The notes beneath the pieces were generated by a model, which was given only the letters and a program-made list of their open reading frames with translations, was not told where the DNA came from and searched no databases. DNA of 30,540 nucleotides, from the IMG/VR virus record IMGVR_UViG_3300048587_000703, positions 1-30,540 of that record; one strand, given 5' to 3'. Shown here piece after piece: positions 1-22,572 of the stretch; the stretch's first letter is position 1, and each line of letters opens with the position of its first letter. Position numbers and translations under genes: made by a program. The stretch is from a virus.

Positions 1-1478
1 GCATTCTCGTTGTTCTGGATCAGCCGCTCGCGCTCGCGGATGATGTCGTTGATCTCGCGCTCGGCCTCGCGGTCGGGGCGCGGGATGGATGCCACGCGCC
101 GGGTGGTGCCCTCGATGCGGCGCAGTGCCTCGTCGCGTTCCCGGAGGGCGAGCGTCTCCAGCTGGGTCCGATCGGCCGCGGTGATGCCGCCCGCGGCCTC
201 GGCCTCGCGCAGGCGACGGACGCGGTCCTCGTATTCGCTGTTGATGCGAAAGCGGTCGTCGAGCGCCTTGCGCAGTTCCTCGGCATCGGCGGCGGTCCGG
301 CGGCGACGGGCCTCGGCGGCCTGGCCAGCCGCGGCCTCCTGCTCGGTGCGTTGGCGCTCACCGGCGGCTGCCTCGCCGCGGGTGATCTCCTCCTGGAGTT
401 CCGCATACTGGCGGCGCAGTTCCTCCAGCCGGGCGGTGCGATCGACGCCGGCCTGCTGCTGAGCCGTGCCGACCAGCCCGCCCTGGATGCTGCCGCGGCG
501 CGGCTGGGAGCGGAGGCTGTCGCGACCGTCGTTCTCCGCCTCGAGGCGGGCGATCTGGGCGCGCAGTGCCTCCGCCTGGGCGCGGCGGTCGGCCTCCTGC
601 TCGCTGGGCAGCAGCAGGCCCGAGCCGCGGCGCACGCCATCCAGCACGCGGGCGGCGCCGGACAGCGCACGCGCCAGGGCGTTGGACAGGCCGATGGCCT
701 GGTCGAGCCGGGCGAGGAACTGGTCGGCGGCGGCGGTGAGCTGGCCGAAGGCGCGGCCGACGGAGAGCGGCGCGCGCTCGAATTCGCCATTCAGCCGCTC
801 GACGGCGCGCAGCAGCGCCGGGAAGACCGTGTCGGCGGTGAGCTTGCCCTCGGAGCCGAGCTTGCGGAGCTCGCCGATGGAGACGCCGAGCTCGCGCGCC
901 AGCGCCTGCGCCAGGGTGGGCAGGCCTTCGAGGATGGACCGCAGCTCATCGCCCTGCAAGGTGCCGGAGGCCAGCGCCTGGGCGAGCTGCTGCGTGCTGG
1001 AGGCGATCTCCTGCTGGCTGGCGCCGGACGCGATGGCGATGCGCTGCAGCCCGCCGACCAGGGTGGCGACCTGGTCGGAGGTGGCGCCGATCTCCCGCGC
1101 GGCGATCGAGAAGCGGGCGAAGGCGTCGACGCTCTCGCGCACCGCGACGCCGGTCTGCAGGCTATCGCGGTACAGCCGGTCGTAGATCTCGCCTGCACGC
1201 TCGACGGAGCCCAGCGCGGTGTTGAGCCGGCCCATGGACTGGGTGAGCGCGTCGCCGGCGACGACCACTGCGCGCAGGCCTGCGGCGAGGCCCGCGATCT
1301 GCACGCCGCGCACGGCGACGTCGAGCAGGTCGAGGGCGCGGGAGGCACGATCGGCGCCGCCCTGGATGCGCTCCAGGCTGCGCTGGCCGGTCTCGCCGAC
1401 CTCGCGCAGCTCCTGCTTGACCCGGGCGGCATCGTCCAGCGACAGCCGGACCGAGACGCGGCGCGTGCTATCCGCCAT
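1..1478 (-). CDS. Tape measure protein, N-terminal part (runs off the left edge)
   Basis: The frame is open from ATG at 1478 to the window edge, giving 492 residues without a stop. AGGAGG lies about 8 nt before the start. Tape measure proteins span the tail lumen, set tail length and are ejected with the DNA. Residues about 60-210 carry the conserved tape-measure N-terminal domain: a region ending in LQGDELRSILEGLPTLAQ followed by LGVSIGELRKLGSEGKL is characteristic. After that come Ala/Arg/Glu-rich stretches, probably long coiled coil (for example around AEELRKALDDRFRI and RERLIQNNEN at the edge). The gene follows the tail assembly chaperone and its frameshift extension (stop at 1508), the normal order in siphovirus tail modules. 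The C-terminal part lies outside the window. Confidence 0.9.
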   Translation of the reverse strand, partial: MADSTRRVSVRLSLDDAARVKQELREVGETGQRSLERIQGGADRASRALDLLDVAVRGVQIAGLAAGLRAVVVAGDALTQSMGRLNTALGSVERAGEIYDRLYRDSLQTGVAVRESVDAFARFSIAAREIGATSDQVATLVGGLQRIAIASGASQQEIASSTQQLAQALASGTLQGDELRSILEGLPTLAQALARELGVSIGELRKLGSEGKLTADTVFPALLRAVERLNGEFERAPLSVGRAFGQLTAAADQFLARLDQAIGLSNALARALSGAARVLDGVRRGSGLLLPSEQEADRRAQAEALRAQIARLEAENDGRDSLRSQPRRGSIQGGLVGTAQQQAGVDRTARLEELRRQYAELQEEITRGEAAAGERQRTEQEAAAGQAAEARRRRTAADAEELRKALDDRFRINSEYEDRVRRLREAEAAGGITAADRTQLETLALRERDEALRRIEGTTRRVASIPRPDREAEREINDIIRERERLIQNNEN

Positions 1479-1507: not shown

Positions 1508-1831
1508 TCAGGGTCCGGGGGGATCAGTGCGGCGCGCGGCGCTGCCGGCCGCGAGGCCCATGCGCATGGCGAGCAGCAGTTCGGCTGCGGCCCAGCCGGA
1601 AGCACCCATCTCGCGGGCGGTGGAGAGCGCGGCCGGCATGTCGAGGTCGAGGCCGGTCATCGTCGCCGTGGCGCAGGTGGTGCCCGCGGTCCAGACGGCG
1701 GCACCCTCAACGCTGGCGGGAGCGTGGGCGGCGTAGGGGCAGGCCATGCCGCAGTCGCGGTCCAGGGCGGCACAGCCGCGGCAGTAGTCAGGGCCCTGGC
1801 CGAAATGCCATTCGGCCCGGGCCCTTAGCCG
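1508..1831 (-). CDS. Tail assembly chaperone frameshift extension (T-like part of a G-GT fusion)
   Basis: This frame opens inside the end of the tail chaperone gene and continues 107 codons to TGA at 1508. It has no ribosome site and no plausible start near its beginning; the only in-frame ATG (1747) follows GACTGCGGC, which is not a Shine-Dalgarno sequence. It lies in the -1 frame relative to the chaperone, entered exactly at the slippery heptamer at 1837-1831. The predicted fusion is about 231 residues (124 plus 107). The extension begins RLRARAEWHFGQGPDYCRGC and holds four close cysteines (CxxC then CxxxC), possibly metal binding, then a small helical region ending ARRTDPPGP. By analogy with lambda gpGT it would help load the tail tube protein onto the tape measure protein encoded next. 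An independently started 79-residue protein from 1747 is the alternative, but less likely. Confidence 0.7.
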   Translation of the reverse strand, partial: RLRARAEWHFGQGPDYCRGCAALDRDCGMACPYAAHAPASVEGAAVWTAGTTCATATMTGLDLDMPAALSTAREMGASGWAAAELLLAMRMGLAAGSAARRTDPPGP

Positions 1832-1837
1832 TTTCCC
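1791..1837 (-). promoter_or_regulatory. Programmed -1 ribosomal frameshift signal
   Basis: On the minus strand the chaperone frame reads GAG GGA AAC GGC TAA, containing the slippery heptamer G GGA AAC (1837-1831). A 6-nt spacer GGCTAA (1830-1825) contains the zero-frame stop. A hairpin follows at 1824-1791: GGGCCC, G, GGCCGAA, loop TGGCAT, TTCGGCC, A, GGGCCC. That is 13 base pairs with one G-A mismatch and a 6-nt loop. Heptamer, 5-9 nt spacer and stable downstream structure are the three classical parts of a -1 frameshift site, and lambda G/GT uses the related G GGA AAG. The -1 frame stays open to 1508. Confidence 0.82.
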
Positions 1838-2202
1838 TCCAGGGCCACGGCGGCAACCGGGCCGGTGGCGCGGTCCCAGAAGGCGGCGGCCATCTCGTCG
1901 ATGTCCATGAGCCGCTCGACGGCCTCGGGGGAGAGCGGCAGCGGCACCCCGGCGGCGTCGCCGACGCCCTCCCAGGCGGTGACGGCGTGACGGGCGAGCG
2001 CCTTGACGAGGAAAGCGAAGGCGAGGCCGCGCGCCATGTCGGGGTCGAGGTCGGCCTCGGCAGCACGCAGCGCGCCGAGGCGGCGCGCGGATCCGGCCTG
2101 GGCGGCGGCCATGACGGCGGTGGTCACGGGGCGGATTTCCACGCGGACGCCGCGCGGCAGGTCAAGCCAGTACGGCTCGACCGGGAGGTCGAGAGTGAGC
2201 AT
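1825..2202 (-). CDS. Tail assembly chaperone (gpG-like)
   Basis: This is a 125-residue protein starting MLTLDLPVEPYWLDLP. ATG at 2202 is preceded by GGAGAA at about 6 nt, so I chose it over longer in-frame extensions reaching 2466. It contains an Ala/Leu-rich helical body (RRLGALRAAEAD, RGLAFAFLVKALA) and ends VAALEGNG-like at the frameshift signal. Size, composition and position directly upstream of the tape measure gene match tail assembly chaperones, which bind the tape measure protein while the tail tube polymerises. The tail tube gene would normally be immediate upstream; here 3 kb carrying a plus-strand SIR2 gene intervenes, so tail transcription must cross that insert or restart in 2203-2542. 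Family assignment rests on context plus the frameshift signal more than on residue motifs. Confidence 0.75.
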   Translation of the reverse strand: MLTLDLPVEPYWLDLPRGVRVEIRPVTTAVMAAAQAGSARRLGALRAAEADLDPDMARGLAFAFLVKALARHAVTAWEGVGDAAGVPLPLSPEAVERLMDIDEMAAAFWDRATGPVAAVALEGNG

Positions 2203-2542
2203 GTGGTTCTCCGTTTGCGTGATATTGGCCGAGACAGCCGCTGCACGAAGCGATAGCGGCGAGCACAGAGGCCCGAGTTGCGAATCAACACGGTCCGCAT
2301 CCGTGTGGAGATCAGTGTTATCGCCCAGGAGAGGGGAAGAGGTCCGCGTTCGACCCAGAGCGGACCTTGGCAGTCTGTGGCGCAAGGCCCGGCCTTGGCC
2401 GCGTGGAGCGGGCTGTCTGCTTCCGGGACTGACGGGAGCAAAATCGTGCTCCATGCTCCTGGGCACGGCCTATCCCAGAAGATACGATGGAAATTCTGGC
2501 GCATCTGCTGCCAACCTGCTTGCGCAAGCCTCGGAGGCTCCA
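2203..2542. other. Divergent intergenic region with two hairpins, upstream of the SIR2 gene
   Basis: This 340-bp stretch separates the minus-strand chaperone start from the plus-strand SIR2 start. I see no credible gene in it; the open frames here lack ribosome sites and coding-like composition. It holds a perfect 6-bp hairpin (ACACGG at 2288-2293, 7-nt loop, CCGTGT at 2301-2306) and a perfect 8-bp inverted repeat (AGGTCCGC at 2340-2347, 12-nt loop, GCGGACCT at 2360-2367). The second resembles dispersed extragenic palindromes, which is an impression from memory and not a database match. The SIR2 promoter must lie here, but no clear -35/-10 pair is visible; TACGAT at 2483-2488 is a weak -10 possibility. 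Confidence 0.5.
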
Positions 2543-5017
2543 ATGCTGCCCGACATAAAAAACGCCTACCTGACTGGACGGCTAATGCTCCTGCTCGGCG
2601 CCGGCGCGTCTCACGGATCACACGATTCCGATAATCTTGAATTGCCTATGGGAGATGAACTTGCCAACGAACTCGCTGGATTTATGGGTTGGCCCTACAA
2701 CGGGGAGCCCCTCGGCGCTGTCTACTCGGCAATTAACGCGATTGATTCTGCGCGACTTCAAGCGTTCTTGAGAAAGCGACTGACCAACACAAAACCATCA
2801 CCGGAGCTCCAAGCGATCGCGTCATTCCCATGGGCGCGTATTTTTACATTGAACATAGATGACTGCACCGAAACCGCGCTTCGGAAATCAAAAGCACAAA
2901 GCGTTCAGATCTTCGCTCGCAATTCACCACTCGAAGAAATTGACCCGATTTTTGGGTCTGTTCAGCTCATAAAGCTGAATGGATCAGCCGATCGTCCAGA
3001 GGATGGCTTTATCTTTTCACCACAGGAGTACGGAGAAGGATCAAATCGACTTCCTGTCTGGTATCGTGAGCTAGGCCAGAACCACAGTAACTACACATTT
3101 CTTTTCGTCGGTAGCAAGCTAAACGAACCACTGTTCCAGCATGCCATGGCTGAGATGCGTTCGGTCCTCAAAAGAGCTCCCCTGCGTGGATATGTAATAA
3201 CTCCTTCTGCAAGCGAAATAGAGAAATATCATCTCAATAGCTTCAACCTCCTTCACGTGCCTGGCACACTCAAAAACTTCGCGGAATGGCTCGCGCACGA
3301 AATGCCTAAACCCCCAAGCGGATGGGATCTTGCTACCGCTCGGCGTCCTGAGCTACGGAATTTGCATAGAGCCTTAACCGACTTGCAAAAACGCGCATTG
3401 AACAGCGTTACACTCGTAAGTGCCGATAATCTTCCTCGCTCCAAAGCGGACAACACCTTGGGCGCGATTCGCGAGTTTTATAAGGGCTTCAAACCTCAAT
3501 GGACCGACATCCTCGATGGCGTTCCCGCCGAACTCGGGTTCATCACGGATTTCTCGAAGCTCGTCGAGGTTCACGAACGTAAAAAATGTATTGCGCTGGT
3601 CGGCCCTGCTGGCTCTGGCAAGACCACCACTTTGATGGTTGCTGCGCTCCATATCAGCAAAGCCTCGAACATACCCGTCTACTTTCTACGGGAGGCGGTC
3701 AGCGATCTTAAAGAAGTTGTTGTCGCTTTAGAGCAGATCAACAATTCTGCATTTTACCTGTTCATTGACAAGCTTGAGGGTATGCACAATGAGGTTGCCG
3801 AATTACTTGCATCATCACAAACACGACACATCTGCATCGTGGCTTCGGAGAGGCTCAACATCTGGAACAGGCGGGTAAAAGCGATTGTTGAGCCATGCGT
3901 TTCCAAGACGTTCGTCGTTGAGAAGATACGCAAACCGGATGTGAGCGATATACTTGCAAAGCTGGAAAAGTTCGGACCCTGGACACGCCTGCAACCGATG
4001 ACATCCGAGCAGCGCGTCAAAGAAATTTTTAACAAGGCTGACCGGCAATTGCTTATCGGTCTAATGGAGGCAACCACAGGTCTCGGATTCACGCAAATCA
4101 TTGCCAGAGACTTTAAAAATGTAGGTGACGATCGCCACAAAATGTTTCTTGTTATTGTTGGTCTTGCAAGCATTCATAGGTCAACGCTGAGTTCGCAAAT
4201 TGTGGGATCAGCCCTCTCGAATCTGAGTATTGCAGAAGATGTAAATATGATGTCGCGCGATACGGAGGGTATTATTGTAACAAATTCGGGGAAGTATTCC
4301 GCGCGTCACCCGGTCTATGTTCGAGAGCTTTTCGAGAAGATTGTTCCTATAGATATGATTAGGAATTGTTTGATCGCTGTCTTAGAGGCATTTTCCGACT
4401 ACGAAACTCCAGTAATCAAAAATGTTGGGAAGGCGGACGGTGTAGTTTTTAAATCAATTATAAATCATCGATTCGCCAAAGAGATAATGCGCGGTGACGA
4501 AGAGAAGACTTTGTCGATTTATAAGGCCTTCGAGACCAAATTTCATATCGATGGGTTGTACTGGCTGCAGTACGGCTTGGCGCTACGCGATTTCGGGAAG
4601 CAACGTGAGGCACTAGAAAAATTAAAGACGGCGCGAGACGCGTTTGTTTCACCTCAAATCGAGCACGCCTATGCGCAGCAGCTGATGATCATCGCTTCTT
4701 CGTCGCAAAGCTGGGACGATGCGGAACCGCTGCTGAGGGAAGCAATAGACGCGCTACGCGAGCTTAACCGAATCGCGAATACGACTGACAGCTATCCCAT
4801 CGTGACGCTCGCAGAGGGACACATCTCGGTTCGCTTGAAATTTTTCGGCGTTGAGGGTGCTAAAATCATAGCACAGCAGTACGCTAATGAGTTGCTCGCC
4901 GCACACAAAAAATACCCCAGCGCCCGCCTTGAGGATGCAGTAAAAAACGTCGTTATTTTCGCAACTAACGGCACTTGGAAGGATTCCTTTGGGACAAGTT
5001 ATCAGGATGGTAAATGA
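2543..5017 (+). CDS. SIR2-like + P-loop NTPase (STAND-type) defence protein
   Basis: This 824-residue protein starts at ATG 2543, 5 nt after GGAGG. Residues 1-250 form a SIR2-like domain: nucleotide motif LLLGAGASHGS (16-26), FTLNIDD (101-107), IKLNGSADRPEDGF (143-156) and FLFVGSKLNEP (186-196). Residues about 330-600 form a P-loop NTPase with Walker A GPAGSGKTTT (354-363) and Walker B FYLFIDKLEG (404-413). Residues about 650-790 are helical and TPR-like (paired segments around YGLALRDFGKQREALEKLKTA). Known relatives (Avs5, DSR1/2 and other defence sirtuins) sense phage proteins and deplete NAD+, aborting infection. Oddities: it lies opposite to and inside the tail operon, is clearly AT-richer with different codon use than its neighbours, and has Asn148 where SIR2 proteins usually show LHG. 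The defence role is inferred from domain layout; exact family is unproven. Confidence 0.85.
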   Translation: MLPDIKNAYLTGRLMLLLGAGASHGSHDSDNLELPMGDELANELAGFMGWPYNGEPLGAVYSAINAIDSARLQAFLRKRLTNTKPSPELQAIASFPWARIFTLNIDDCTETALRKSKAQSVQIFARNSPLEEIDPIFGSVQLIKLNGSADRPEDGFIFSPQEYGEGSNRLPVWYRELGQNHSNYTFLFVGSKLNEPLFQHAMAEMRSVLKRAPLRGYVITPSASEIEKYHLNSFNLLHVPGTLKNFAEWLAHEMPKPPSGWDLATARRPELRNLHRALTDLQKRALNSVTLVSADNLPRSKADNTLGAIREFYKGFKPQWTDILDGVPAELGFITDFSKLVEVHERKKCIALVGPAGSGKTTTLMVAALHISKASNIPVYFLREAVSDLKEVVVALEQINNSAFYLFIDKLEGMHNEVAELLASSQTRHICIVASERLNIWNRRVKAIVEPCVSKTFVVEKIRKPDVSDILAKLEKFGPWTRLQPMTSEQRVKEIFNKADRQLLIGLMEATTGLGFTQIIARDFKNVGDDRHKMFLVIVGLASIHRSTLSSQIVGSALSNLSIAEDVNMMSRDTEGIIVTNSGKYSARHPVYVRELFEKIVPIDMIRNCLIAVLEAFSDYETPVIKNVGKADGVVFKSIINHRFAKEIMRGDEEKTLSIYKAFETKFHIDGLYWLQYGLALRDFGKQREALEKLKTARDAFVSPQIEHAYAQQLMIIASSSQSWDDAEPLLREAIDALRELNRIANTTDSYPIVTLAEGHISVRLKFFGVEGAKIIAQQYANELLAAHKKYPSARLEDAVKNVVIFATNGTWKDSFGTSYQDGK

Positions 5018-5109
5018 AAAATCTTTATGTCCATATTCTCTCACTGCACTAAGATGTTTGCAGCAATTTTTATAATTGGTACAAAGTAGGTGCTCTCTAT
5101 GATAGGGAT

Positions 5110-5131
5110 TGGTATTGGCGTCGGAATACCA
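5110..5131 (+). terminator. Possible terminator after the SIR2 gene
   Basis: TGGTATT (5110-5116), an 8-nt loop and AATACCA (5125-5131) form a perfect 7-bp stem about 93 bp after the SIR2 stop, followed by GTTTTGG. The stem is short and AT-rich and the T-run is brief, so this is only a candidate. The rest of 5018-5218 is AT-rich, holds no gene I can support, and ends at the tail tube stop codon. Confidence 0.3.
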
Positions 5132-5218
5132 GTTTTGGTGCCAATTGAACCTAGGGGTATCCTATGTTTTACAGTTCCTTTTTCGCCCAGCGCAGACTCG
5201 CAACGTCAATTACTGTGC

Positions 5219-6172
5219 TCACGCATATTCTGTCCCCGCCTGCTGGTTCCGCAGCACAGCGGTCATCATGCGCGTCGCCGTCGCGTTGAACGCGGCCCTG
5301 AAGTCGAAGCTCGCCTCCACCCCGGCCGGCCCTTCGATCGGCGTCTTGGCCAACGCCAGATAGACCTCGTGCAGCGTGATCGTCAGGCTACGGTTGGCAT
5401 CGATGGTGAAGGCCAGCGAGAACTCCGCCGAAGTGCCGCCCTGCGCCTGCGCCAGCAGCGTCGTGTTCTCGAAGCGCACGGTGATCTGGCCCGTGCAGCG
5501 CGCGATGCCTGGATCCACGCCCTCGACGCGGCGGTCGGCGCGGATGGTGCGCACCGCCTCCATGCCATTAGCGTAGGTGAGCCGCGCGCCTGTGACCTGC
5601 GCCAGCGCCACGCTGCTGCGGGTGATGGACCCCTGCGCCTTGTTAAAGGCGGTGTAGGCGGCGCTGGTCGGCGTACCGCCTGACGTTGCGCCGGTACGCA
5701 CCGAACCCTGGCCCAACAGCCCGAAGGTCGCCGTCGCCGCGCCAGTCGGCGTGAAGTCCAGCTCCAACGTGTCGGCGCGCACGCCGGTGCAGACGTCGAA
5801 GGATGGCACGTCAGGGTAGCCGATCTCCATCGCGTTGCTGGGCAGCGACGCCGCGCCCGAGGCGAAGGTGTGGATGAAGTTGGTCGTGCCCGTGGTGGTC
5901 GGCGGGCCGAGCAGCAGCCGCAGCCATTGGCCGATGTTGATCAGATCGACCGGCACCACCGCCTGGCCGGCGACGGTCACCGTGTCGAGGAAGGGCGCGG
6001 CCGGGTCGCGGTTGCTGCCCACGCCGATGACGTCGGCATCGAGCAGCGGCTGCTCGGCGCCGAGATCGCAGGAGAGGAACGGCATGCGCCGCCAGTTGCT
6101 GCCGGGCGCAGTGCCGTAGACGGCTTCGGGCAGCATGAGCAGGCGGCAGTTCGCGCCGATGGCACGGGGCAT
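5219..6172 (-). CDS. Major tail tube protein
   Basis: This 317-residue protein starts MPRAIGANCRLLMLPEAVYG at ATG 6172, with AGGAG about 7 nt upstream. It is rich in Gly, Thr, Ala and beta-type segments, as in tail tube proteins of the Phage_tube family: NFIHTFASG near the middle, TLELDFTPTGAATATFGLLG, and a C-terminal half in which an ITVRFENTT strand is followed by FSLAFTIDANRSLTITL. Tail tube subunits form stacked hexamer rings around the tape measure protein. The position after the tail terminator gene and before the chaperone and tape measure genes supports the call. DSR2-type sirtuins are known to be triggered by a phage tail tube protein, and here a sirtuin gene is the next gene downstream. 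That adjacency may be coincidence. Confidence 0.8.
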   Translation of the reverse strand: MPRAIGANCRLLMLPEAVYGTAPGSNWRRMPFLSCDLGAEQPLLDADVIGVGSNRDPAAPFLDTVTVAGQAVVPVDLINIGQWLRLLLGPPTTTGTTNFIHTFASGAASLPSNAMEIGYPDVPSFDVCTGVRADTLELDFTPTGAATATFGLLGQGSVRTGATSGGTPTSAAYTAFNKAQGSITRSSVALAQVTGARLTYANGMEAVRTIRADRRVEGVDPGIARCTGQITVRFENTTLLAQAQGGTSAEFSLAFTIDANRSLTITLHEVYLALAKTPIEGPAGVEASFDFRAAFNATATRMMTAVLRNQQAGTEYA

Positions 6173-9466: not shown

Positions 9467-11575
9467 TCAGGTCCCCGGATTGAACCAGGCGCCACGCCAG
9501 TCGATGGCGCCGACGCCGAAGTCGAAGATCACCGAGACCTCGACGCCGTCGACGCCCTGAACATTGCCGGTGGTGACCTGCGGTCCCTCGGCACCGTTGA
9601 GGTAGCCGTAGACATAGACGGGTGCAGCGAAGGGGTCGGAGAACAGGTACCAGCGGTTGGCCGGGATCAGCGGTTCGACCAGCGGCTGCACGAAGCCGGC
9701 ATAGACGTTGGCATTGCTGGTCTGCGTCGCCTGCACCGAGACGGTGAGCTGCCGCGCGGCGAGTTCCTGGTTCGGCCCGACCAGCAGGCGCATGGAGGCG
9801 CCGATGGAGATGGGCAGGCCATCCAGGGTCTTCTGCTTCATCACCGCAGCGCGGCCGATGGCGAGGTTGGCCAAGTCCAGCGCTGTGCCGGCCGAGGCCT
9901 TGTTGGCCCGCGTGGCCGCCGTCCCGAACACCGCTGCCGCACCGGTGATAAGCGTCGGGCCGTCGCCGCTGGCGCTGTTCAGCAGGGCATAGGCCGTCGC
10001 GTTCTCGAAGTCGGCGACGCGTCGGCCGATCATGCTGGCGAAGTCGGTGAAGGCGCCGAGGTCGTCGTTGACCAGCATCTGCCGCGTGACGCGGATGCGC
10101 CGCGCGAAGGTCTGCAGGAACACCAGTTCCTGGCTCTCGGACATCGTGCCGGCCTGCACCTCACCATTCTCCGACAGCGGCAGCAGCGTCGGGAAGTCGC
10201 CGACACGGAGATGCCGGTGCGGCTTGAAGTCCCGGAAGTCGCGGCGGAGGAACAGCGTCCGGTAGGTGGGTGCCGCCGGCGCGTAGGCCGCCAGCAGCAT
10301 CTTGTTCGCCGCGGCCGAGAGCAGGGCCGGGAAATCGCTGGTGGTGTGGAAGGCGCGCTCGGCGAGGATGGTCGGGTTGCGCGGCACGTTGCGCTCGCCG
10401 CGGGCGCGGAGCAGTTCCCCGATCATATCGGAGGGCCGCCAGCCCAGGAACTCGGTGTGGCGACCGGTGGCCGGGGCCTGGTAGCCGGGCATGGTGCGGG
10501 CCGCGAGTGCCTCGGCCATGGCGTCGAGGAGCTGCGACGGGTCGTCGTTGGACGGACCGGTGTCGGGGCGCGCCGGCAGGGACGGGCGCACGGCACCGCT
10601 GGTGAACGCCTCCCACAGGCGGCCGCGCAGCACCTCGGGGGAGATGCGGTCGCGAATGGCGGCCTCACGCATGGTGTCGAGGATGTCGGGGGTGACGAGG
10701 CCGCGGGCGGCGGCGAGCACCGGCTCATAGCCGGCGATGCGCTCGACCGCGGCGCGCTCGGCCTCGGCGCGGATGACGTCGAGATCGGGTGCCGGCGGCG
10801 CGGCGCGCGTGGGCTCGGGCGGGGCGGTGGACGGGCTGGCGGGTGCGGTGGTCACGCGGCTCTCCGGCGGCACGGTGGCGGGGTGCGGCGCAGGCGGCGC
10901 CGGTGCGGGATCCGGCGAAGCCGGCGTCGTCTCGGTCATGGTGGGTTCCTCGGTCAGGGCAGGTTCGATGGCGATGGCGGGGGTGCCCTGGGCCCCCTCG
11001 CCACGGATCACGGCCAGGCCGTCCACCGGGACGGGCACGATCGAGATTTCGTAGGGCTCCCAATCCACCGCGCGGTGGATGGTCTGGCCGGTGGCGGCAT
11101 CGGGCCGGGGCTCGTAGCGATGCACGCGGTAGCCGACGCTGACGGACTGCAGCGTGCCGTCCGCGACGCGCTGCCAGACCGGCTCCACGTCATCGGCGCC
11201 GCTGAATTGTAGTGTGGCGTAGCCGCGGTTCGCCTCGAGGCGCGCGGCCACCACCCGGCCAAGCACATCCCGCGTGCCGGCGCGGCGGTGGGTGTCCAGC
11301 ACAGGCGCGCGGCCGGAGTGCAGGGCGTCCATGCGCACCGCCTCGGGCCGCATATCGAGTTCCTCAATGATGGGGCCGAGCGGTGGCACGAAGTTGCGGG
11401 CCCGCGCACCGGTGCTCCACACCACCTCGACGGTGCGCGCGACGCGGTTGACGGTGACAGGCGCAGCGAGCGCGCGGCACGCGGTGATCGACTGCCCAGC
11501 GCTGGGCAGTCCATCGGGCGCAGCAGTCTGTGCCGGCGCGGCATCGCTACCACGCAGTGCGATCGGTTCGGTCAT
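9467..11575 (-). CDS. Prohead protease / major capsid protein fusion
   Basis: This is a 702-residue protein. Residues about 35-195 look like an HK97-family prohead serine protease: His96 in LDTHRR, Ser146 in SVSVGYRV, and Glu in EPYEISIVPVP (about 174-183). Residues 205-265 are a Pro/Ala/Thr-rich linker, followed by a helical scaffold-like part (IRAEAERAAVERIAGYEPVL). The C-terminal about 400 residues resemble a Mu-gpT-like or HK97-like capsid subunit (LRVGDFPTLLPLSENGEV, SQELVFLQTFARRIRVTRQM, RRVADFENATAYALLNS). Such fusions are known in proteobacterial phages. One chain thus supplies protease, scaffold and shell and must be self-processed. ATG at 11575 has AGGA about 8 nt upstream, just after the portal stop (11579). 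Confidence 0.88.
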   Translation of the reverse strand: MTEPIALRGSDAAPAQTAAPDGLPSAGQSITACRALAAPVTVNRVARTVEVVWSTGARARNFVPPLGPIIEELDMRPEAVRMDALHSGRAPVLDTHRRAGTRDVLGRVVAARLEANRGYATLQFSGADDVEPVWQRVADGTLQSVSVGYRVHRYEPRPDAATGQTIHRAVDWEPYEISIVPVPVDGLAVIRGEGAQGTPAIAIEPALTEEPTMTETTPASPDPAPAPPAPHPATVPPESRVTTAPASPSTAPPEPTRAAPPAPDLDVIRAEAERAAVERIAGYEPVLAAARGLVTPDILDTMREAAIRDRISPEVLRGRLWEAFTSGAVRPSLPARPDTGPSNDDPSQLLDAMAEALAARTMPGYQAPATGRHTEFLGWRPSDMIGELLRARGERNVPRNPTILAERAFHTTSDFPALLSAAANKMLLAAYAPAAPTYRTLFLRRDFRDFKPHRHLRVGDFPTLLPLSENGEVQAGTMSESQELVFLQTFARRIRVTRQMLVNDDLGAFTDFASMIGRRVADFENATAYALLNSASGDGPTLITGAAAVFGTAATRANKASAGTALDLANLAIGRAAVMKQKTLDGLPISIGASMRLLVGPNQELAARQLTVSVQATQTSNANVYAGFVQPLVEPLIPANRWYLFSDPFAAPVYVYGYLNGAEGPQVTTGNVQGVDGVEVSVIFDFGVGAIDWRGAWFNPGT

Positions 11576-11578
11576 CGG

Positions 11579-13057
11579 TCAGTCCTGAAGCTGCGGATCC
11601 TGGCGAGGCGGCGCCGCTGCCCCCGTCGCTGCAATCTCGATGGCGGCGAGCTGAGCGGCGTCCTGCGCCGCGCCGGATTTCGCGACGCGGCGTGGATCCG
11701 TGTCGAGCGAGAGGCCGGCCTCGTCGAGCAGGGCGTTGGCCTCGCGGATCATCTCCACCACCTGGCGGAAGTCGTAGCCAAAGGCGCCGACCGCCTCGGG
11801 CTGCGGTACGAAGCCAGCACGGACCTGGGCGATGAGCGCGGTGGTGTCCTTGAGTGGGTCGATCATCTCGTGCGCCGGCGGGACGTGCGACAGGCCGTTC
11901 GGCACCTCGGCGCCCCACAGGCCGAGCAGCGCGCCCTGCGCGTGGAAACGGTCCGCGATGGGCCGCACCAGCATTGGGATCAGCATGCCGTACTGGACCT
12001 GCTCGCAGAGCCGGCGGAACTCGATCTTGCCGGCGCGCAGGCTGGAGTAGTTCGCCTGCGTCAGATCGCCAGCGACCTGGTCGTAGGTCAGGCCCGTGCC
12101 TATGGCGGACGCCTCCAGCGCGCGGCGAGCGAAGGCGGCGTGGCTGCCACCGCTGGAGGGGTTCACCACCTCCACGGACCCCATGCCGCGGCGATACAGG
12201 ATCATCCCCGGCTCAAAGCTCTCCACCGTGCGGCCCTGCGCATCGCGCAGCAGTCCCGACGCTGGGCCGGTCATGGCGTCGTCGCCATCCTCGGACACCA
12301 CCGCGGCGAGGCATGCCTCGATCTTGGCCTTCATGAGGAGGGCCGCCTCGTAGTCGCCCAGATCGTGCAGGCGGGTCAGCACTGGGGCGAGCCAGGAGAC
12401 GTCGCGCAGCTGGCCTGGCCGGCGCTTGCGGTAGATGTGCAGCACGTCGCGGGCGGGGACCCGCTGGCTGCTCAGCCAGGTGGTACCACCGGGCAGAACC
12501 CAAGATGCGCCGGGATGCACGCGGTGTAGCCAATAGCCGACCGGCTCTCCCGCCTCGCCGAGGCCGATGCCCTGCAGGGTGGGGACGCCCTCGATCATGC
12601 CCTGCCGCGCCGTGTCGAGATGGTCGATCTCCAGTACCTGCATCCTCAGGCCGATCGGATTGGCCGGCGTGATGTCAGCCGGCAGCAGGCGGACGAAGCA
12701 TTCGCCGCTCTCCACCACGGCGCGCATGACCAGCGCCTGCAGGCCGTAGAGGTCGAGGCGGCCCTCGGCGTCGCAGGCGGTGCTGTCGGACCAGCGGCGC
12801 CACGCCTCGGCATGAGGTTTGTCGGGCCAGCGGGTGGTGATGCCGGCGCCCACCGCATTGCCGGTCCAGAGATCGACGATGCGCGCGGCGTAGGGGTAGT
12901 TGCGGACGGCATCGCGGGCGCGGCGCGCCACGGTGGGGGCCGCGGCACCAACCTCGGCCGTGGCGCTGCTGCCGGAGGCCGCCCAGCTCGATGCACGGCT
13001 GTCCTGCGCCGCGGCATAGCCACGAAGGGCGTGCCAGGCATCTCGAAAGCGCCCCAT
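11579..13057 (-). CDS. Portal protein (lambda gpB family)
   Basis: ATG at 13057, overlapping the gpW stop, gives 492 residues; an adjacent GTG at 13060 would add one residue. Diagnostic segments are RDAVRNYPYAARIVDLWTGN near the N terminus, AVVESGECFVRLLP, MQVLEIDHLDT, the middle PARDVLHIYRKRRPGQLRDV, and DQVAGDLTQANYSSLRAGKI, which is typical of lambda-family portals. The portal forms the dodecameric ring through which DNA is pumped by terminase and to which the neck attaches. The gene sits between gpW and the protease-capsid fusion, as expected. The C terminus is Ala/Asp/Gln rich (PPRQDPQLQD). Confidence 0.92.
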   Translation of the reverse strand: MGRFRDAWHALRGYAAAQDSRASSWAASGSSATAEVGAAAPTVARRARDAVRNYPYAARIVDLWTGNAVGAGITTRWPDKPHAEAWRRWSDSTACDAEGRLDLYGLQALVMRAVVESGECFVRLLPADITPANPIGLRMQVLEIDHLDTARQGMIEGVPTLQGIGLGEAGEPVGYWLHRVHPGASWVLPGGTTWLSSQRVPARDVLHIYRKRRPGQLRDVSWLAPVLTRLHDLGDYEAALLMKAKIEACLAAVVSEDGDDAMTGPASGLLRDAQGRTVESFEPGMILYRRGMGSVEVVNPSSGGSHAAFARRALEASAIGTGLTYDQVAGDLTQANYSSLRAGKIEFRRLCEQVQYGMLIPMLVRPIADRFHAQGALLGLWGAEVPNGLSHVPPAHEMIDPLKDTTALIAQVRAGFVPQPEAVGAFGYDFRQVVEMIREANALLDEAGLSLDTDPRRVAKSGAAQDAAQLAAIEIAATGAAAPPRQDPQLQD

Positions 13058-15867: not shown

Positions 15868-16752
15868 TCAGTTCAGCAGCGTCGGGCCACCGGGCGGCGC
15901 CGGTCCATACCTGACCGACGCGAAAAAGCGCTCCAAAATCGCGGACCACTCGGCGCTGCGCGCATCTGCCTCCGGGTCGTGCGCGAGGCGCCGCTCGCTC
16001 CCGCGCAGCAATGCGAACGCGGGGGTAGCGCTGTCGCTAGGCGCCAGGCAGTAGCGGGCGACCGAGGTGATCCGGAGCACCGTGCCGGCCGGGAATCGCG
16101 GATTGTCACGCGCCTCGTAAACGATCCTAGTCGGCACGCAGTTGGACCCCGGCAGCGGAGCACCGACCTCGCCATGCACAGTTCGGAAGCCCGGGCCGTG
16201 TTCCCAGACGAGCAGGCCCGGCGCACCGTCCGGGCGCGCATCGGTCGTGAGGCCGGCGCGCAGGTCGGCCTGGAGCGCCGCATGAAGCCCACCAAGATCG
16301 CGCAGATTCTCCGGCGGGATCACCGATGGACCGAGGGCGGCTGCGACGAGGAAAAAGGTATGGGCATACTCCGATGGTGTCGGCGGCCGGCCTGCACTGC
16401 GAAGCGCAACGATGTACGCGAAGTGATAGAATTTCGACGCATACGGCCCGTCCGGCACTTCGCACCAATGCGCGCCGGGCAGTTCCACCGTGACGACGGC
16501 AGGTGCTTCTCCGACGGTCCGTCCCGCGCCCGCGTCAGGGATGTAGCGCCCGCGCATATTGCGGCAAGCCGTCGCCGGGTCAGACACCTCGACCGCTGGC
16601 GTCGGGCTATCCTTCGATGCCGCGTCGCAGCCGACCAAGACGATCGGAAGGACGAAACCCATAGCGAAAGCGACGAGGCCGCCGCCGAGCCGCTCGCGGC
16701 AGAGTGCACTCAACCACCCGGGCAAACCGAATGAGTTCGATGGCCGATCCAT
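15868..16752 (-). CDS. Predicted lipoprotein of unknown function (phage cargo)
   Basis: ATG at 16752 has GAGGAGGG about 7 nt upstream. The product is 294 residues. Residues about 24-41 are hydrophobic and end in the lipobox LVGC (39-42), so Cys42 is the predicted lipidated residue. The long positively charged n-region before it is unusual. The mature part has several cysteines (CRNMRGRYIP, HWCEVPDG, SNCVPTR, RYCLAPSD) that could form disulfides, and a helical middle (HTFFLVAAALGPSVIPPENL). I do not recognise a family. Placed just upstream of the packaging genes and next to an IS remnant, it looks like a lysogenic-conversion or superinfection-exclusion gene; that is inference only. Confidence 0.65.
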   Translation of the reverse strand: MDRPSNSFGLPGWLSALCRERLGGGLVAFAMGFVLPIVLVGCDAASKDSPTPAVEVSDPATACRNMRGRYIPDAGAGRTVGEAPAVVTVELPGAHWCEVPDGPYASKFYHFAYIVALRSAGRPPTPSEYAHTFFLVAAALGPSVIPPENLRDLGGLHAALQADLRAGLTTDARPDGAPGLLVWEHGPGFRTVHGEVGAPLPGSNCVPTRIVYEARDNPRFPAGTVLRITSVARYCLAPSDSATPAFALLRGSERRLAHDPEADARSAEWSAILERFFASVRYGPAPPGGPTLLN

Positions 16753-18444: not shown

Positions 18445-18680
18445 GCTGGTCTCCGTCTGTTGCTGCAGGGCATCCCCTGCGGGTGACGGACCATTCGCGC
18501 TGTGCCGCGCACGAGCCAAGCAAGATGCGGCGTTATGCGATTGCTATGTTTCGGCGGTCTGGATCACATCATGATCCGCAGCGCCGCATCCCGATTGGAC
18601 ACCTGCGAAGGCGTAATTCTAACCCATCGCGCCATGGCAAAGCGCGGTCTAGCCTCGCGCCCAACCGGCGAGGATCTCCT

Positions 18681-19457
18681 GTGTCAGCGACCCCGATCTA
18701 TCTCGGCATCGATGTGGCCTGTGCCAGCAAAAAGCGATTGCCGATCTGCGCGGCGGCACTCGGAAGCACGATCGAGCCGCTGGACATCCCAGCGCCCCTG
18801 CTGCGTCTCATCCCGCGCGGCAGAGGCAACCGAGAGATCACGGAAGTCGCGCCGTTCCGAGATGCCGCGCGTGGCGTTGCACGAGCAATTGGCCAGATCG
18901 CCTGTGAGATGGGGTGGCGCATTGAACGCATTGCCATCGATGCCCCTGCGGCGCCTCCGAAAGCAGGCGCTCGTGCATCCGAGGCTGAGCTCGGGCGCTG
19001 CGGCTTATCGTCCTTCCGAACACCTGCAGCACCCGATTGGATCGGCATACGCGAGGCCTGCATTCGACATCTCGATGGGGGCGGCTCTTTGGCTAAGCTC
19101 CCGCATGCCAACAAGATCTGGATGATGTTTGGCTTCGAGATGTTTGCCAGTCTGCGAGAGGAAAGCGCAGCGGAGGTCATCGAAGTCTACCCATTTGCGA
19201 TCGTCCGAGCGCTTCTCCCGTCGTGTGAGCACAAATCGACGGAACAGGGCTACCGAGATCAACTCGCAGCGGTCGCGTTTCGTACCGGCTGGGATCCTGA
19301 CCGGTTGGAAGGGCGGCTGAAAGGATCCGTGGCCGGGAGCCGGCACGACCGCTTGGACGCATTCATGGCCGCCTGGGTGGCGAGCCTGCCGCCCGGAGCT
19401 CGGCGAACATATGGCGATGCCCAAAAACCCGATGATTCGATCTGGGTACCCGTGTAG
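18681..19457 (+). CDS. DUF429 family protein (RNase H-fold nuclease candidate)
   Basis: GTG at 18681, 6 nt after AGGA, gives 258 residues starting VSATPIYLGIDVACASKK. Longer starts back to 18483 lack ribosome sites and give Arg-rich, noncoding-like sequence. Conserved pieces fit DUF429: GIDVA near the N terminus, RIERIAIDAPAAPPKAG, EVIEVYPFAIVRALLP and SRHDRLDAFMAAWVAS near the C terminus. The acidic residues (Asp in GIDVA, Asp in AIDAP, Glu/Tyr in EVYP, Asp in HDRLDA) are laid out as in RNase H-like nucleases. It lies on the plus strand against all neighbours, is less GC-rich than them, and ends 60 bp from the convergent methyltransferase gene. This is the position of a phage cargo gene. Activity and substrate are unknown. 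Confidence 0.72.
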   Translation: MSATPIYLGIDVACASKKRLPICAAALGSTIEPLDIPAPLLRLIPRGRGNREITEVAPFRDAARGVARAIGQIACEMGWRIERIAIDAPAAPPKAGARASEAELGRCGLSSFRTPAAPDWIGIREACIRHLDGGGSLAKLPHANKIWMMFGFEMFASLREESAAEVIEVYPFAIVRALLPSCEHKSTEQGYRDQLAAVAFRTGWDPDRLEGRLKGSVAGSRHDRLDAFMAAWVASLPPGARRTYGDAQKPDDSIWVPV

Positions 19458-19517: not shown

Positions 19518-20765
19518 CTACGCCATTGTGACCGCGCAGCGCTCTGCGGTGATATCGGAAAAGCAGCGGTCATCGCCCTCCAGCACGGCTGCTCCGCCCG
19601 TCGTGTCCTGCCAGCGCCGCACGATGACATCGGCATAGGCGGGATCGATCTCCAGCAGCACGGCGCGCCGCCCCGTGCGCTCCGCCGCGATCATCGTCGT
19701 GCCCGAGCCGCCGAAGCAGTCCAGCACCGTATCGCGCGGCTTGCTGCTGTTGTGCATGGCGCGCTCGACCAGCGCCACCGGCTTCATGGTCGGGTGCAGG
19801 TCGTTGCGCGCCGGCTTGTCGAAGTGCCAGACGTTCCCCTGGTCGCGAGCGCCGCACCAGTAGTGCTGCGCGCCAGCCTTCCAGCCGTAGAGCATCGCTT
19901 CGAACTGCTGGTGGTAGTCGGCGTGGCCGAGCGCGAAGGTGTTCTTCGCCCAGATGATGGTGCTCGACCATTTGCCGCCCGCCTCCTGCCAGACGCGGTG
20001 CAGCGTCGGCCATTCGGAGGAGGACATGCAGACGTAGCAGGCGCCCTTGGTCACGGAGAGCAGGTTGGCCAGCGCGGGACGGAGGAATTCTGGGAAACCA
20101 CCGCCGAGCGCGTCATTCGCGATGGTCATCTTGGCGGCGGTGCCGCCCTCATAGGCGACATTGTAGGGCGGATCGACGAAGCCCATGTCGGCAAGGTGCC
20201 CGGCGCCGAGGGCGCGCTGCACATCCTCGATCCGGGTGGCGTCGCCGCAAAGAAGGCGGTGTTCCCCACAGCGCCAGAGATAGCCGGTGCGCGTGACGGG
20301 AACGACGGGCGGCGGCGGGGCGTCGTCGGCATCATCGCCGAGGCCGGCATCGGCAGCCGCCAGCAGCCGGTCGAGCTCCATCCCGGAGAAGCCAAGCACG
20401 TCCAGGTCGACCACTGCCTCATCGCGGATGCGGGCGATCTCCGCGGCGAGCAGCGCCTCATCCCAGCCCGAGTTCAGCGCGATCTGGTTGTCGGCCAGGC
20501 GCAGGGCACGCGCCTGCGCAGGGGAGAGATGGCCGAGCCGTAGCACCGGCACGGAGGCGAGGCCCAGCTGCTTCGCCGCCATGACGCGGCCGTGGCCGGC
20601 GATCAGCACGCCCTCGGCATCGACCAGCACCGGATTCACGAAGCCGAACTCAGCAATGGAGGCGGCGATCTGCGCCACCTGCGCCGCCGAATGCGTGCGC
20701 GCGTTCTCGGCATACGGGACCAGCCCCGCTACCGGCAGGCTGCTCACCACGAGATCAAGCTGCAT
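19518..20765 (-). CDS. ParB-domain DNA methyltransferase (DPPY type)
   Basis: ATG at 20765, 9 nt after GGAGG, gives 415 residues; longer starts fall inside the upstream gene. Residues 1-100 form a ParB/sulfiredoxin-like domain (VPYAENARTHS, LIAGHGRVMAAKQLG, LRLADNQIA). Residues about 160-385 form an amino-methyltransferase with GFVDPPYNVAYEG (motif IV, DPPY 198-201) before CFGGSGTTM (motif I, 350-358), the beta-class order, which methylates adenine N6 or cytosine N4. It overlaps the 3' end of the next methyltransferase, so both are co-expressed. No restriction enzyme gene is near, so it is an orphan enzyme, probably masking phage DNA from host restriction. The target site cannot be read from sequence. 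Confidence 0.88.
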   Translation of the reverse strand: MQLDLVVSSLPVAGLVPYAENARTHSAAQVAQIAASIAEFGFVNPVLVDAEGVLIAGHGRVMAAKQLGLASVPVLRLGHLSPAQARALRLADNQIALNSGWDEALLAAEIARIRDEAVVDLDVLGFSGMELDRLLAAADAGLGDDADDAPPPPVVPVTRTGYLWRCGEHRLLCGDATRIEDVQRALGAGHLADMGFVDPPYNVAYEGGTAAKMTIANDALGGGFPEFLRPALANLLSVTKGACYVCMSSSEWPTLHRVWQEAGGKWSSTIIWAKNTFALGHADYHQQFEAMLYGWKAGAQHYWCGARDQGNVWHFDKPARNDLHPTMKPVALVERAMHNSSKPRDTVLDCFGGSGTTMIAAERTGRRAVLLEIDPAYADVIVRRWQDTTGGAAVLEGDDRCFSDITAERCAVTMA

Positions 20766-22224
20766 CGGCGGTGACCTCCTGCCTCGCCGCAGCGATGGCG
20801 TCGTAATCGCGACCGTCATCGGCCAGCGTCACCGGCAGATCCGGATGCAGCATCCGCCATCGGGCGATCGCCAGGTCGACATAGGCCGGCGCCAGTTCGA
20901 TCGCGCGAACGCGGCGAGCGGTGCGCTGGCCGGCCAGGATGGTGGTGCCCGAACCACCGAACGGCTCGAACACCACCTCGCCATCGTCGGTGTAGCTGCG
21001 CATCAGGAACTCTGGCAGCACCACCGGGAACACCGCGGGGTGCTCCGTCTCGATGCCACGCCCCTTGTGGCGGGTCAGGCGCAGCACGTTGTCTGGGATC
21101 CGGAAGTCCTGCACCGGCAGGCCGGCATGCTGGTACTCGGAGATGGTCCCATCCGCCGCGCGCAGGCCGCTGCCCTTGTTCGGCGTGCCGGCCCATTTAC
21201 ACGGCACGATCTTGTTGGCCTGCCGCGGCTGGCGGTTGAAGTGGAAGACCAATTCGAAGGCGGGCGCGAGCCGCCCGTTCCAGTCGCCGGGCAGGCCGGG
21301 GCCCTGATCCCAGGTGTAGAGCCCGAAGCGCCGCCAGCCGCGGGCGCGCATCCAGTCGAGCCAGCCGGCCCAATAGGGCTGCCATTCATTGTCGCGATGG
21401 ATCAGGCCGAGGTTCACCAGCACCTGGCCATCGGTCCGCATGCCCGCGTCGAGGTGCTGGAATACGCCCTGCATCAGGGCATCCCAGTCCGTGACACCGC
21501 CGGTGGTGTAGTCGCGCTGGTTTCCATAAGGCGGCGACGTGAAGAGCAGCGCCGCGCGGTCGTCGCCCATCGCGCGCAACACCGAGGCAGCGTCGGTGCT
21601 GTCGCCGCATAGCAGCCGATGTTCACCGAGCAGCCACAGATCGCCGGGGCGGGTGACGGCTTGGCGCGGCGGTTCTGGCTCGGCATCGGCGGGGTCTTCC
21701 GCCGGCGCATCATTCGTCGCCGCCGCGCCAGCCGCTCCGCCCTCCTCGGCGGGATCCGCGGACAGAGCCTCGGGCGCGTCGCCGTCGGACACGGCATCTC
21801 CAGCCGCCGCGAGGATGTCCGCGAGCTCATCCGCCGAGAAGCCGAGCGCGCCGAGGTCGATCTCCTGCGTCGCCTGCACCGCGGCGAGCGCATCGCGCAG
21901 CAGCGCCTGGTCCCAAGTCGCGTTCTCCGCGATACGATTGTCGGCGAGCCGCAGCGCCTCCTTCTGCGCCGCGGAAAGATGCCGCAGCACGATGGTCGGT
22001 ACCTTCTCGATGCCGAGCGCCGACGCCGCCTCGAGCCGGCCGTGGCCGGCGATCAGCACGCCGTCCTCATCGACCAGCAGCGGGTTGGTGAAGCCGAAGG
22101 CCAGCATGCTGGCCTTGATCTGCTCTAGCTGCTCGGCGCTGTGGACGCGGGCGTTGCCGGCATGCGGGCGCAGTTCCGCCACCGGACGCAGCAGGATCTT
22201 CGCCGCCATCCAGGGGAGCGTCAT
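20755..22224 (-). CDS. ParB-domain DNA methyltransferase (SPPY type)
   Basis: ATG at 22224 gives 489 residues; the ribosome site is weak (GGATGG about 6 nt upstream). The ParB-like part is residues 1-105 (RPHAGNARVHSAEQL, LIAGHGRLEAASALG, LRLADNRIAE). An acidic Ala-rich linker (about 140-190) precedes the methyltransferase part with LLFTSPPYGNQRDY (SPPY 230-233) and PFGGSGTTI (421-429). SPPY is common in cytosine-N4 enzymes; the order is again beta class. The gene overlaps the DPPY enzyme gene by 11 bp. The two share the ParB half closely but differ in the target half, pointing to duplication followed by divergence or domain exchange. Confidence 0.88.
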   Translation of the reverse strand: MTLPWMAAKILLRPVAELRPHAGNARVHSAEQLEQIKASMLAFGFTNPLLVDEDGVLIAGHGRLEAASALGIEKVPTIVLRHLSAAQKEALRLADNRIAENATWDQALLRDALAAVQATQEIDLGALGFSADELADILAAAGDAVSDGDAPEALSADPAEEGGAAGAAATNDAPAEDPADAEPEPPRQAVTRPGDLWLLGEHRLLCGDSTDAASVLRAMGDDRAALLFTSPPYGNQRDYTTGGVTDWDALMQGVFQHLDAGMRTDGQVLVNLGLIHRDNEWQPYWAGWLDWMRARGWRRFGLYTWDQGPGLPGDWNGRLAPAFELVFHFNRQPRQANKIVPCKWAGTPNKGSGLRAADGTISEYQHAGLPVQDFRIPDNVLRLTRHKGRGIETEHPAVFPVVLPEFLMRSYTDDGEVVFEPFGGSGTTILAGQRTARRVRAIELAPAYVDLAIARWRMLHPDLPVTLADDGRDYDAIAAARQEVTADAA

Positions 22225-22572
22225 GATGCCATCCGGTTTGCAGGAGGTTTGCAGGGCCGCGGCGCGGCGTTGGTTTGCAGCTAACGGTTTGAAGCGGCTC
22301 GGAAAGGCTGCAAACTGCAAACCATATTTCCGGCCTGGCGCTAGCGACCTTGCGCGCTTCCGCCCCCCGCATACAGCGGGGCCAGGAAGGACCCTGCGGC
22401 TCGAAAGCCACTGTCTCGATTGAGCCGCAGCGTGGCTGCTCAGCCACTCAGCCACGGCGCTCTCGCACCTTCTCTACGTGTCCTGACTCTACCCTTATCG
22501 ATTTCGGTGCCGCCATGGGGTCAATTGTAACAGCGTGACCGAGGCGATGCAGAGCGCCCCGGCCACGCTGCA
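22225..22572. other. Leader/intergenic region with paired GGTTTGCAG repeats
   Basis: This 348-bp gene-free region separates the DUF6456-like stop from the SPPY methyltransferase start. It holds GGTTTGCAG at 22235-22243, 22246-22254 and 22271-22279, a variant GGTTTGAAG at 22285-22293, and inverted copies CTGCAAA at 22307-22313 and CTGCAAACC at 22314-22322. They lie between a candidate promoter (22494-22524) and the gene, about 10-100 nt upstream of the ATG. They could be operators, an RNA structure or a second origin-like array. The remainder (22323-22490) shows GC-rich short palindromes and no gene. Confidence 0.55.
22494..22524 (-). promoter_or_regulatory. Candidate promoter of the methyltransferase operon
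   Basis: The minus strand has TTGACC (22524-22519), a 19-nt spacer and GATAAG (22499-22494). The -35 matches TTGACA at 5 of 6 positions and the -10 matches TATAAT at 4 of 6. The 19-nt spacer is longer than ideal. It lies in the only long gap upstream of the two methyltransferase genes. Confidence 0.35.

Follow-up and report, generated by a model that had tools for sequence, protein, structure and literature searches.

A SIR2-STAND gene separates the tail tube gene from the tail chaperone gene

The window analysed here, a single 30,540-base IMG/VR contig (viral record IMGVR_UViG_3300048587_000703, from which both phage ends are absent), contains the subject of this report, an open reading frame (ORF) that interrupts its tail operon at positions 2543-5017. 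The ORF runs on the (+) strand from an ATG at 2543 to a stop at 5017 and encodes an 824-residue, Avs5-like protein composed of a SIR2 domain, an nSTAND NTPase core and a TPR-like helical region. A ribosome-binding-like GGAGG (2533..2537, +) stands 5 nt before the ATG. The stop-to-stop frame extends upstream of 2543, with its first TTG at 2003, and the starts of homologues match the ATG at 2543.

The flanking tail genes are all on the (-) strand. The left border of the insert is the tail tube gene (5219..6172, -), which matches PHROG 290 under the label 'minor tail protein' and whose Rhodobacter phage counterparts, 44.6% identical, bear the annotation 'tail tube protein'. The right border is the tail assembly chaperone gene (1825..2202, -; PHROG 313), followed by a second small tail gene without a PHROG match (1508..1747, -) and by the tape measure gene (3..1478, -; PHROG 3336 and others), which runs off the contig. 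From tube stop to chaperone start the whole insert measures 3016 bp (2203..5218) and is missing in relatives with an empty site. Its GC content is 0.50 and that of the gene 0.49, compared with 0.70 in the remaining window. An earlier note on this DNA had described a three-part protein encoded on the strand opposite to the tail genes, AT-richer than its surroundings and placed exactly between tube and chaperone, and the GC values and PHROG-matched flanks bear out this description of its setting.

The protein resembles Avs5 in domain order and modelled fold

The three-part architecture was likewise recovered by domain and motif searches. Pfam assigns residues 99-232 to SIR2_2 (PF13289, 43.7 bits against a gathering cut-off of 24.5) and residues 310-444 (3470..3874, +) to nSTAND_NTPase5 (PF25199, 78.1 bits against a cut-off of 34); the latter is the best NTPase model, as nSTAND3 scores 22.8 bits, under its own cut-off of 27.2. 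A GAGAS motif occupies residues 19-23, a Walker A sequence, GPAGSGKT, residues 354-361 (3602-3625, +), and a Walker B-like FYLFID is also present. In an AlphaFold2 model built from 33 relatives (mean pLDDT 86.8), the C-terminal part is wholly helical, with helices from about residue 590 to 809, and we take about residues 600-812 (4340..4978, +) as a putative TPR-like sensor region; no TPR model of Pfam is among the matches listed for the protein.

Structure comparison placed the model closest to Avs5, in line with the comparison drawn in the earlier note. The top Foldseek match was EfAvs5 (9jap, E 4.5e-26), followed by the AVAST5 filament (9nc9, E 5.9e-19) and then by human SAMD9, a resemblance previously described for PaAvs5 (PMC12931631); over the full length, DSR2 reached E 4.5e-10. 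VIA-align matched 641-706 residues to Avs5 with Z 22.3-22.5 at a whole-chain rmsd of 26-31 Å, a large value indicating that the domains are arranged differently. The SIR2 domain (residues 1-258; 2543..3316, +) aligned to ThsA and KomC with Z ~24 at 2.6-3.1 Å, and to DSR2 with Z ~20-21. A sequence search of the PDB returned EfAvs5 (9jap_A) at E 0.002, plus SIR2 NADases, and identity to the solved Avs5 chains is 13-16%. A viral structure library gave generic AAA matches, nothing more specific. Thus a SIR2 domain with its NAD-site residues, a STAND core with Walker A and B, C-terminal helical repeats and the overall fold of Avs5 are all present, and on sequence and modelled structure an Avs5-type NADase is the best reading of the protein.

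Asparagine replaces the sirtuin histidine

The catalytic histidine of sirtuins is an asparagine at residue 146, so that the protein has NG (N146 G147; 2978..2983, +) instead of the canonical HG, a change that the earlier note had missed. Of 38 aligned relatives, 32 have Asn and six have His at this position, while N104, D106 and E195 are invariant in 38/38 and the Walker lysine is kept in 37/38. The asparagine recurs in distant relatives as HLNG or HVNG, in Actinobacteria (L032, L034, L036, L039) and in a Chloracidobacterium bin (L037), and the NG variant, as judged from these sequences, is therefore old and kept.

Loss of activity through the His-to-Asn change was considered and set aside, because PaAvs5-1, which naturally has NG, depletes NAD+ (PMC12931631). 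That protein requires N110, D112 and E202 for defence, and replacing its Asn153 by Ala or Gln abolishes defence (PMC12931631). Residues N104, D106, N146 and E195 correspond to N110, D112, N153 and E202 of PaAvs5-1 at nearly equal spacing; given the activity of the PaAvs5-1 NG site, NAD+ hydrolysis is expected here by analogy.

The tube-chaperone junction is a variable slot

We next consider the site itself. IMG/VR was scanned with the tube and with the chaperone, retaining the best 80 loci each (tubes 83-98% identical to that of the window), and after removal of duplicates 76 contigs carried both genes. The gap between tube and chaperone ranges from -1 to 4469 bp in these contigs and falls into 48 size classes; it exceeds the minimum by more than 250 bp in 72/76, leaving four without a sizeable insert. 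Neighbouring junctions are far more uniform: the chaperone is separated from the next gene by 77 bp in 77/77 contigs, the gap at the gene before the tube spans -14 to 35 bp (n = 85) and that at the next junction upstream -1 to 127 bp (n = 79). Two other junctions also vary, portal-capsid and, to a lesser degree, g102-hk. The portal-capsid gap (window ~11575-11579, compared with nine related contigs) extends from 3 bp in the window to 1525 bp and is possibly another cargo slot; separately, inserts as long as 2.8 kb precede the tape measure gene in two contigs.

At empty sites (L064, L085, L118) the tube stop abuts the chaperone ATG, whereas at most occupied sites a GGAGA motif closely precedes the ATG (conserved columns -8 to -10), which in the window is a Shine-Dalgarno-like element at 2208..2212 (-). 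Distant phage relatives in Rhodobacter and Synechococcus lack an insert, so that the empty state is probably ancestral. Chromosomal copies in Acetobacteraceae genomes are occupied in 37/39 cases and empty in two. Pooling the IMG/VR and chromosomal sets yielded 107 distinct inserts in 80 unrelated clusters.

By blastn, the only DNA that the window insert has in common with other inserts is a stretch of 54-173 bases next to the chaperone, found in eight of them (L083, L101, L104, L096, L089, L227, L095, L253), and the cargoes are unrelated. The shared leader lies at 2203..2371 (-); cargo thus changes while the leader stays. At the opposite end, the consensus of insert left ends has no conserved column in its first 60 nt, and just three pairs of left ends were found overall. 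Scans of the window for tRNAs and Rfam families gave no matches, indicating that no tRNA-type attachment site lies at the slot.

Many inserts encode known defence systems

The contents of 36 other inserts were scanned with PADLOC, long coding-like ORFs being chosen, so that the sample is not random. Matches were obtained in 19/36 inserts at E <= 1e-4 and in 12/36 at E <= 1e-15. Clear cases include the two-gene systems LmuA with LmuB (Lamassu; L104, L095) and IetA with IetS (L079), a TIR-NLR (L082), GmrSD/HEC-06 (L063), a Hachiman-like helicase, HamB (L191), a PD-T4-6 or Mad6-like kinase (L186), RmrA (L258), PDC-M32A (L236), PDC-S64 (L048) and ZacB-like proteins (L223, L234). The last two belong to a related two-gene ZacAB-like pair that occurs in both orientations (L223:2048-6077 and L234:2027-6249), one sense and one antisense.

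Pfam added a second SIR2-nSTAND protein from the same slot, of 790 amino acids and with a normal HG (L105:8105-10474), as well as caspase (L077, L250), patatin (L102), DUF4238 (L056) and HEPN_Toprim (L248, L249) domains; FRG, PLD and RES domains are also found among the inserts. For DUF4238, which also occurs in the P2 hotspot, protection against T7 has been validated (PMC9122126). The defence enrichment at the slot is clear in kind but is not quantified, since the models for kinases and helicases are broad ones and the defence share was not set against a matched control. Six large single cargo ORFs went unmatched by both Pfam and PADLOC at E <= 1e-4 (L067:8123-9643, L055:8121-9344, L049:5391-6404, L081:3880-4833, L123:2085-3020 and L076:8172-9575) and are candidates for undescribed defence systems.

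With conserved flanks around one locus, content that varies among related phages and many known defence systems, the slot appears to be a swappable storage site for anti-virus cargo.

The phage group is temperate and the gene probably mobile

The tube gene was found in 55/397 genomes of Acetobacteraceae, the family of Neoroseomonas terrae, often in several copies per genome, and the chromosomal contigs that bear it reach 5.3 Mb. A serine recombinase is present in 23/26 near-complete phage records; a tyrosine integrase, also sought, was found in one of the 26. From the chromosomal occurrence and the serine recombinase we conclude that the host phages are a group of temperate siphophages of Acetobacteraceae. 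The claim of the earlier note that the gene is defence cargo of a prophage is thus supported by the variable slot with its recognised defence systems and by a phage group that resides in chromosomes and carries a serine recombinase.

Relatives of the gene itself are scattered. The highest best-segment identities are to Chelativorans salis (79%), a metagenome-assembled genome labelled Candidatus Marinimicrobia (74%), Sphingobium (64%), Jiella (60%) and Chelativorans alearense (51%); a broad group at ~35-42% identity occupies Beta- and Gammaproteobacteria, some of them in proviral contigs, and remoter relatives occur on plasmids beside transposases, recombinases or restriction genes. By eye, the Chelativorans alearense copy has as neighbours a repressor, a Mu-type transposase and a ParB-like gene. 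Two copies are broken: that of Sphingobium is interrupted near transposase-like ORFs (L011:10001-13057), and that in the Marinimicrobia bin is frameshifted (L010:10001-12479). Only two of the 397 Acetobacteraceae genomes have relatives at E <= 1e-20, with 26-29% identity, so that the source of this copy probably lies beyond the host family. A tblastn search of the protein against 50,697 phage records found no match, and a scan of viral contigs using the protein alone found one relative only, the pair alignment finding more.

As far as sequence comparison can tell, this distribution, across plasmids, prophages and a scatter of accessory sites, is what a mobile defence gene would show and a housekeeping gene would not; confinement of homologues to housekeeping contexts, which would have counted against the earlier note, was not what we found.

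Cargo is mostly antisense to the tail operon

The orientation of the main cargo ORF was assigned for each cluster from codon composition. It opposes the tail genes in 51 clusters and runs with them in 19, with seven ambiguous and three lacking such an ORF, a significant antisense bias (51 vs 19, p = 0.00017, binomial test). Late tail transcription may therefore silence the cargo during the phage's own lytic growth. In Staphylococcus phages, the Tha defence is switched off at induction through an antisense arrangement (PMC11087260). The bias could instead reflect selection against reading cargo from a strong late promoter, or could be a product of how inserts arrive.

One tentative reading, which we regard as possible but more doubtful than not, makes the slot a built-in bay for immune cargo with an off switch: transcription of the late tail operon would run through the antisense cargo gene and silence it, via polymerase collision or antisense RNA, while the GGAGA leader that accompanies inserts would keep the chaperone translated when cargo is present.

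Weighing the explanations

Taking these results together, we consider it probable that the gene encodes an Avs5-type immune receptor, one interchangeable cargo in a hypervariable tube-chaperone slot, which would defend the lysogen, and with it the prophage, against competing phages. By analogy with Avs5, a protein of an incoming phage would bind the C-terminal helical repeats, the ATP-bound STAND core would then oligomerise, and the clustered N-terminal SIR2 domains would hydrolyse NAD+ and stop the infection.

Several observations weigh against this reading. The NCBIfam equivalog for Avs5 (NF041814) scores the protein at 18.9 bits against a cut-off of 1000; known Avs5 clades share only ~20% identity (PMC12931631). 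On its sequence it is a new Avs5-like protein that stands outside this narrow equivalog family. The record of the window, a fragment without either phage end, has no visible recombinase. Consensus scans for promoters and terminators beside the gene recognised nothing in the expected place and orientation, although host promoters may not fit the model used, and expression of the gene is therefore assumed. Finally, some inserts hold what by eye is non-defence cargo, apparently ordinary host genes for LysR, MFS and transporter-binding proteins (L054, L087, L101), so that position alone does not prove defence.

The last point, together with the fact that nearly every insert differs and no single cargo is kept long, would also fit a slot that is a permissive insertion point for any DNA, a moron site, with the gene a chance passenger that has no role for the phage. 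We hold this to be unlikely: over half of the scanned inserts have PADLOC matches, complete systems such as IetAS and LmuAB among them, empty sites are rare, and the ORF is intact across its 824 codons with all active-site residues present. We give about as little weight to a SIR2 pseudo-enzyme, in which the change of His to Asn removes hydrolysis and the protein acts by NAD binding, filament formation or a partner. Every close relative has Asn in place of the catalytic His, and the structure of a KomC(H146N) mutant with bound NAD fragments (PDB 9xvc) fits a slowed or inactive enzyme, but the remaining catalytic residues are invariant, and PaAvs5-1 shows both NAD+ depletion by an NG protein and loss of defence once its asparagine is altered.

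Least probable of all, in our estimate, is a DSR2-like sirtuin that is triggered by tail tube protein and kept beside its own tube gene through a functional link, as sensor or antidote. The earlier note had pointed in this direction, and the gene does adjoin a tube gene and does have a SIR2 fold similar to that of DSR2. DSR2 has a SIR2 domain followed by a helical region and is not known to contain a P-loop STAND core, whereas the match to one is strong here; the full-length fold moreover favours Avs5 (E 4.5e-26 against 4.5e-10). As ~80 unrelated cargo types share the junction, and relatives of the gene sit in unrelated places, adjacency to the tube is not specific and is no pointer to a tube trigger. 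Tube sensing in the manner of DSR2 is thus unlikely. The related question of how the protein avoids triggering by its own phage remains a sensible one for any Avs5 carried by a prophage; the location beside the tube gene is no evidence on it, and the antisense orientation may bear on it.

Relation to known systems

With PaAvs5-1 the protein shares the order SIR2, STAND NTPase, helical repeats, the NG motif and nearly co-positioned essential residues, GPAGSGKT lying at 357-364 there and 354-361 here, and with EfAvs5 and the AVAST5 filament it shares its fold. It differs from Avs5 in matching nSTAND5 rather than nSTAND3 best, in its low identity and equivalog score, and in its place in the tail operon of a temperate phage. 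Thoeris ThsA and Kongming KomC resemble it in the SIR2 fold and lack a STAND core and a TPR-like region; their catalytic His is the canonical one, and nucleotide signals activate them. DSR1 and DSR2 similarly combine an N-terminal SIR2 domain with a helical C-terminal part, and NAD+ depletion is expected of both kinds, but DSR2 has a catalytic His (H171) where Asn is found here. Triggering by the tail tube has been reported for DSR2.

The slot adds a new form to the phage defence hotspots known from P2 and P4, which likewise combine a fixed locus and conserved flanks with defence-rich cargo replaced from phage to phage, and which share with it DUF4238, SIR2, NLR and SMC-type cargo (PMC9122126). 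Here, in contrast, the carriers are siphophages of Acetobacteraceae, and the slot separates the tube gene from the chaperone gene, which in the empty state adjoin directly, stop codon to start codon; most cargo runs antisense to the operon, and a GGAGA leader comes with most inserts. Neither this slot in the tail operon nor defence cargo in phages of Acetobacteraceae was described in the literature searched, which took in few subscription journals or preprints. An accessory defence gene within a structural operon is also seen in JBD26, where tab is a moron between the terminase genes (PMC10884400); that is a single small gene, whereas dozens of large, interchangeable systems occupy the slot described here. 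In the Tha/Ith arrangement, the defence gene is carried in the cI operon and overlaps an opposing phage transcript, coupling immunity to lysogeny, with the antisense gene making a protein inhibitor (PMC11087260). The opposing transcript here would be that of the late tail operon, as predicted from gene orientation.

Other features of the window

Beyond the tail region, an ORF at 18483-19457 (+), opposite to its neighbours, DUF429-like by eye and without a PHROG match, may be an inserted accessory gene. A lipoprotein-like ORF at 15868-16752 (-), upstream of the small terminase gene, has weaker third-position GC than the phage genes. At 19518-22455 (-), two overlapping neighbouring ORFs each look by eye like a fusion of a ParB-like nuclease with a DNA methyltransferase; the PHROG scan covered the first of them and matched it to PHROG 498.

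Implications

For the Avs5 field, the protein adds an NG-type branch found in phages, with NG kept across Proteobacteria and in Actinobacteria. Because almost every relative holds different cargo, defence systems could readily be collected by reading the tube-chaperone gaps of Acetobacteraceae prophages. The antisense bias makes directly testable the long-standing question of how a prophage carries immune genes without attacking itself; were late transcription indeed to silence the cargo, these phages could carry any defence system, even one that senses structural proteins, without a dedicated immunity gene.

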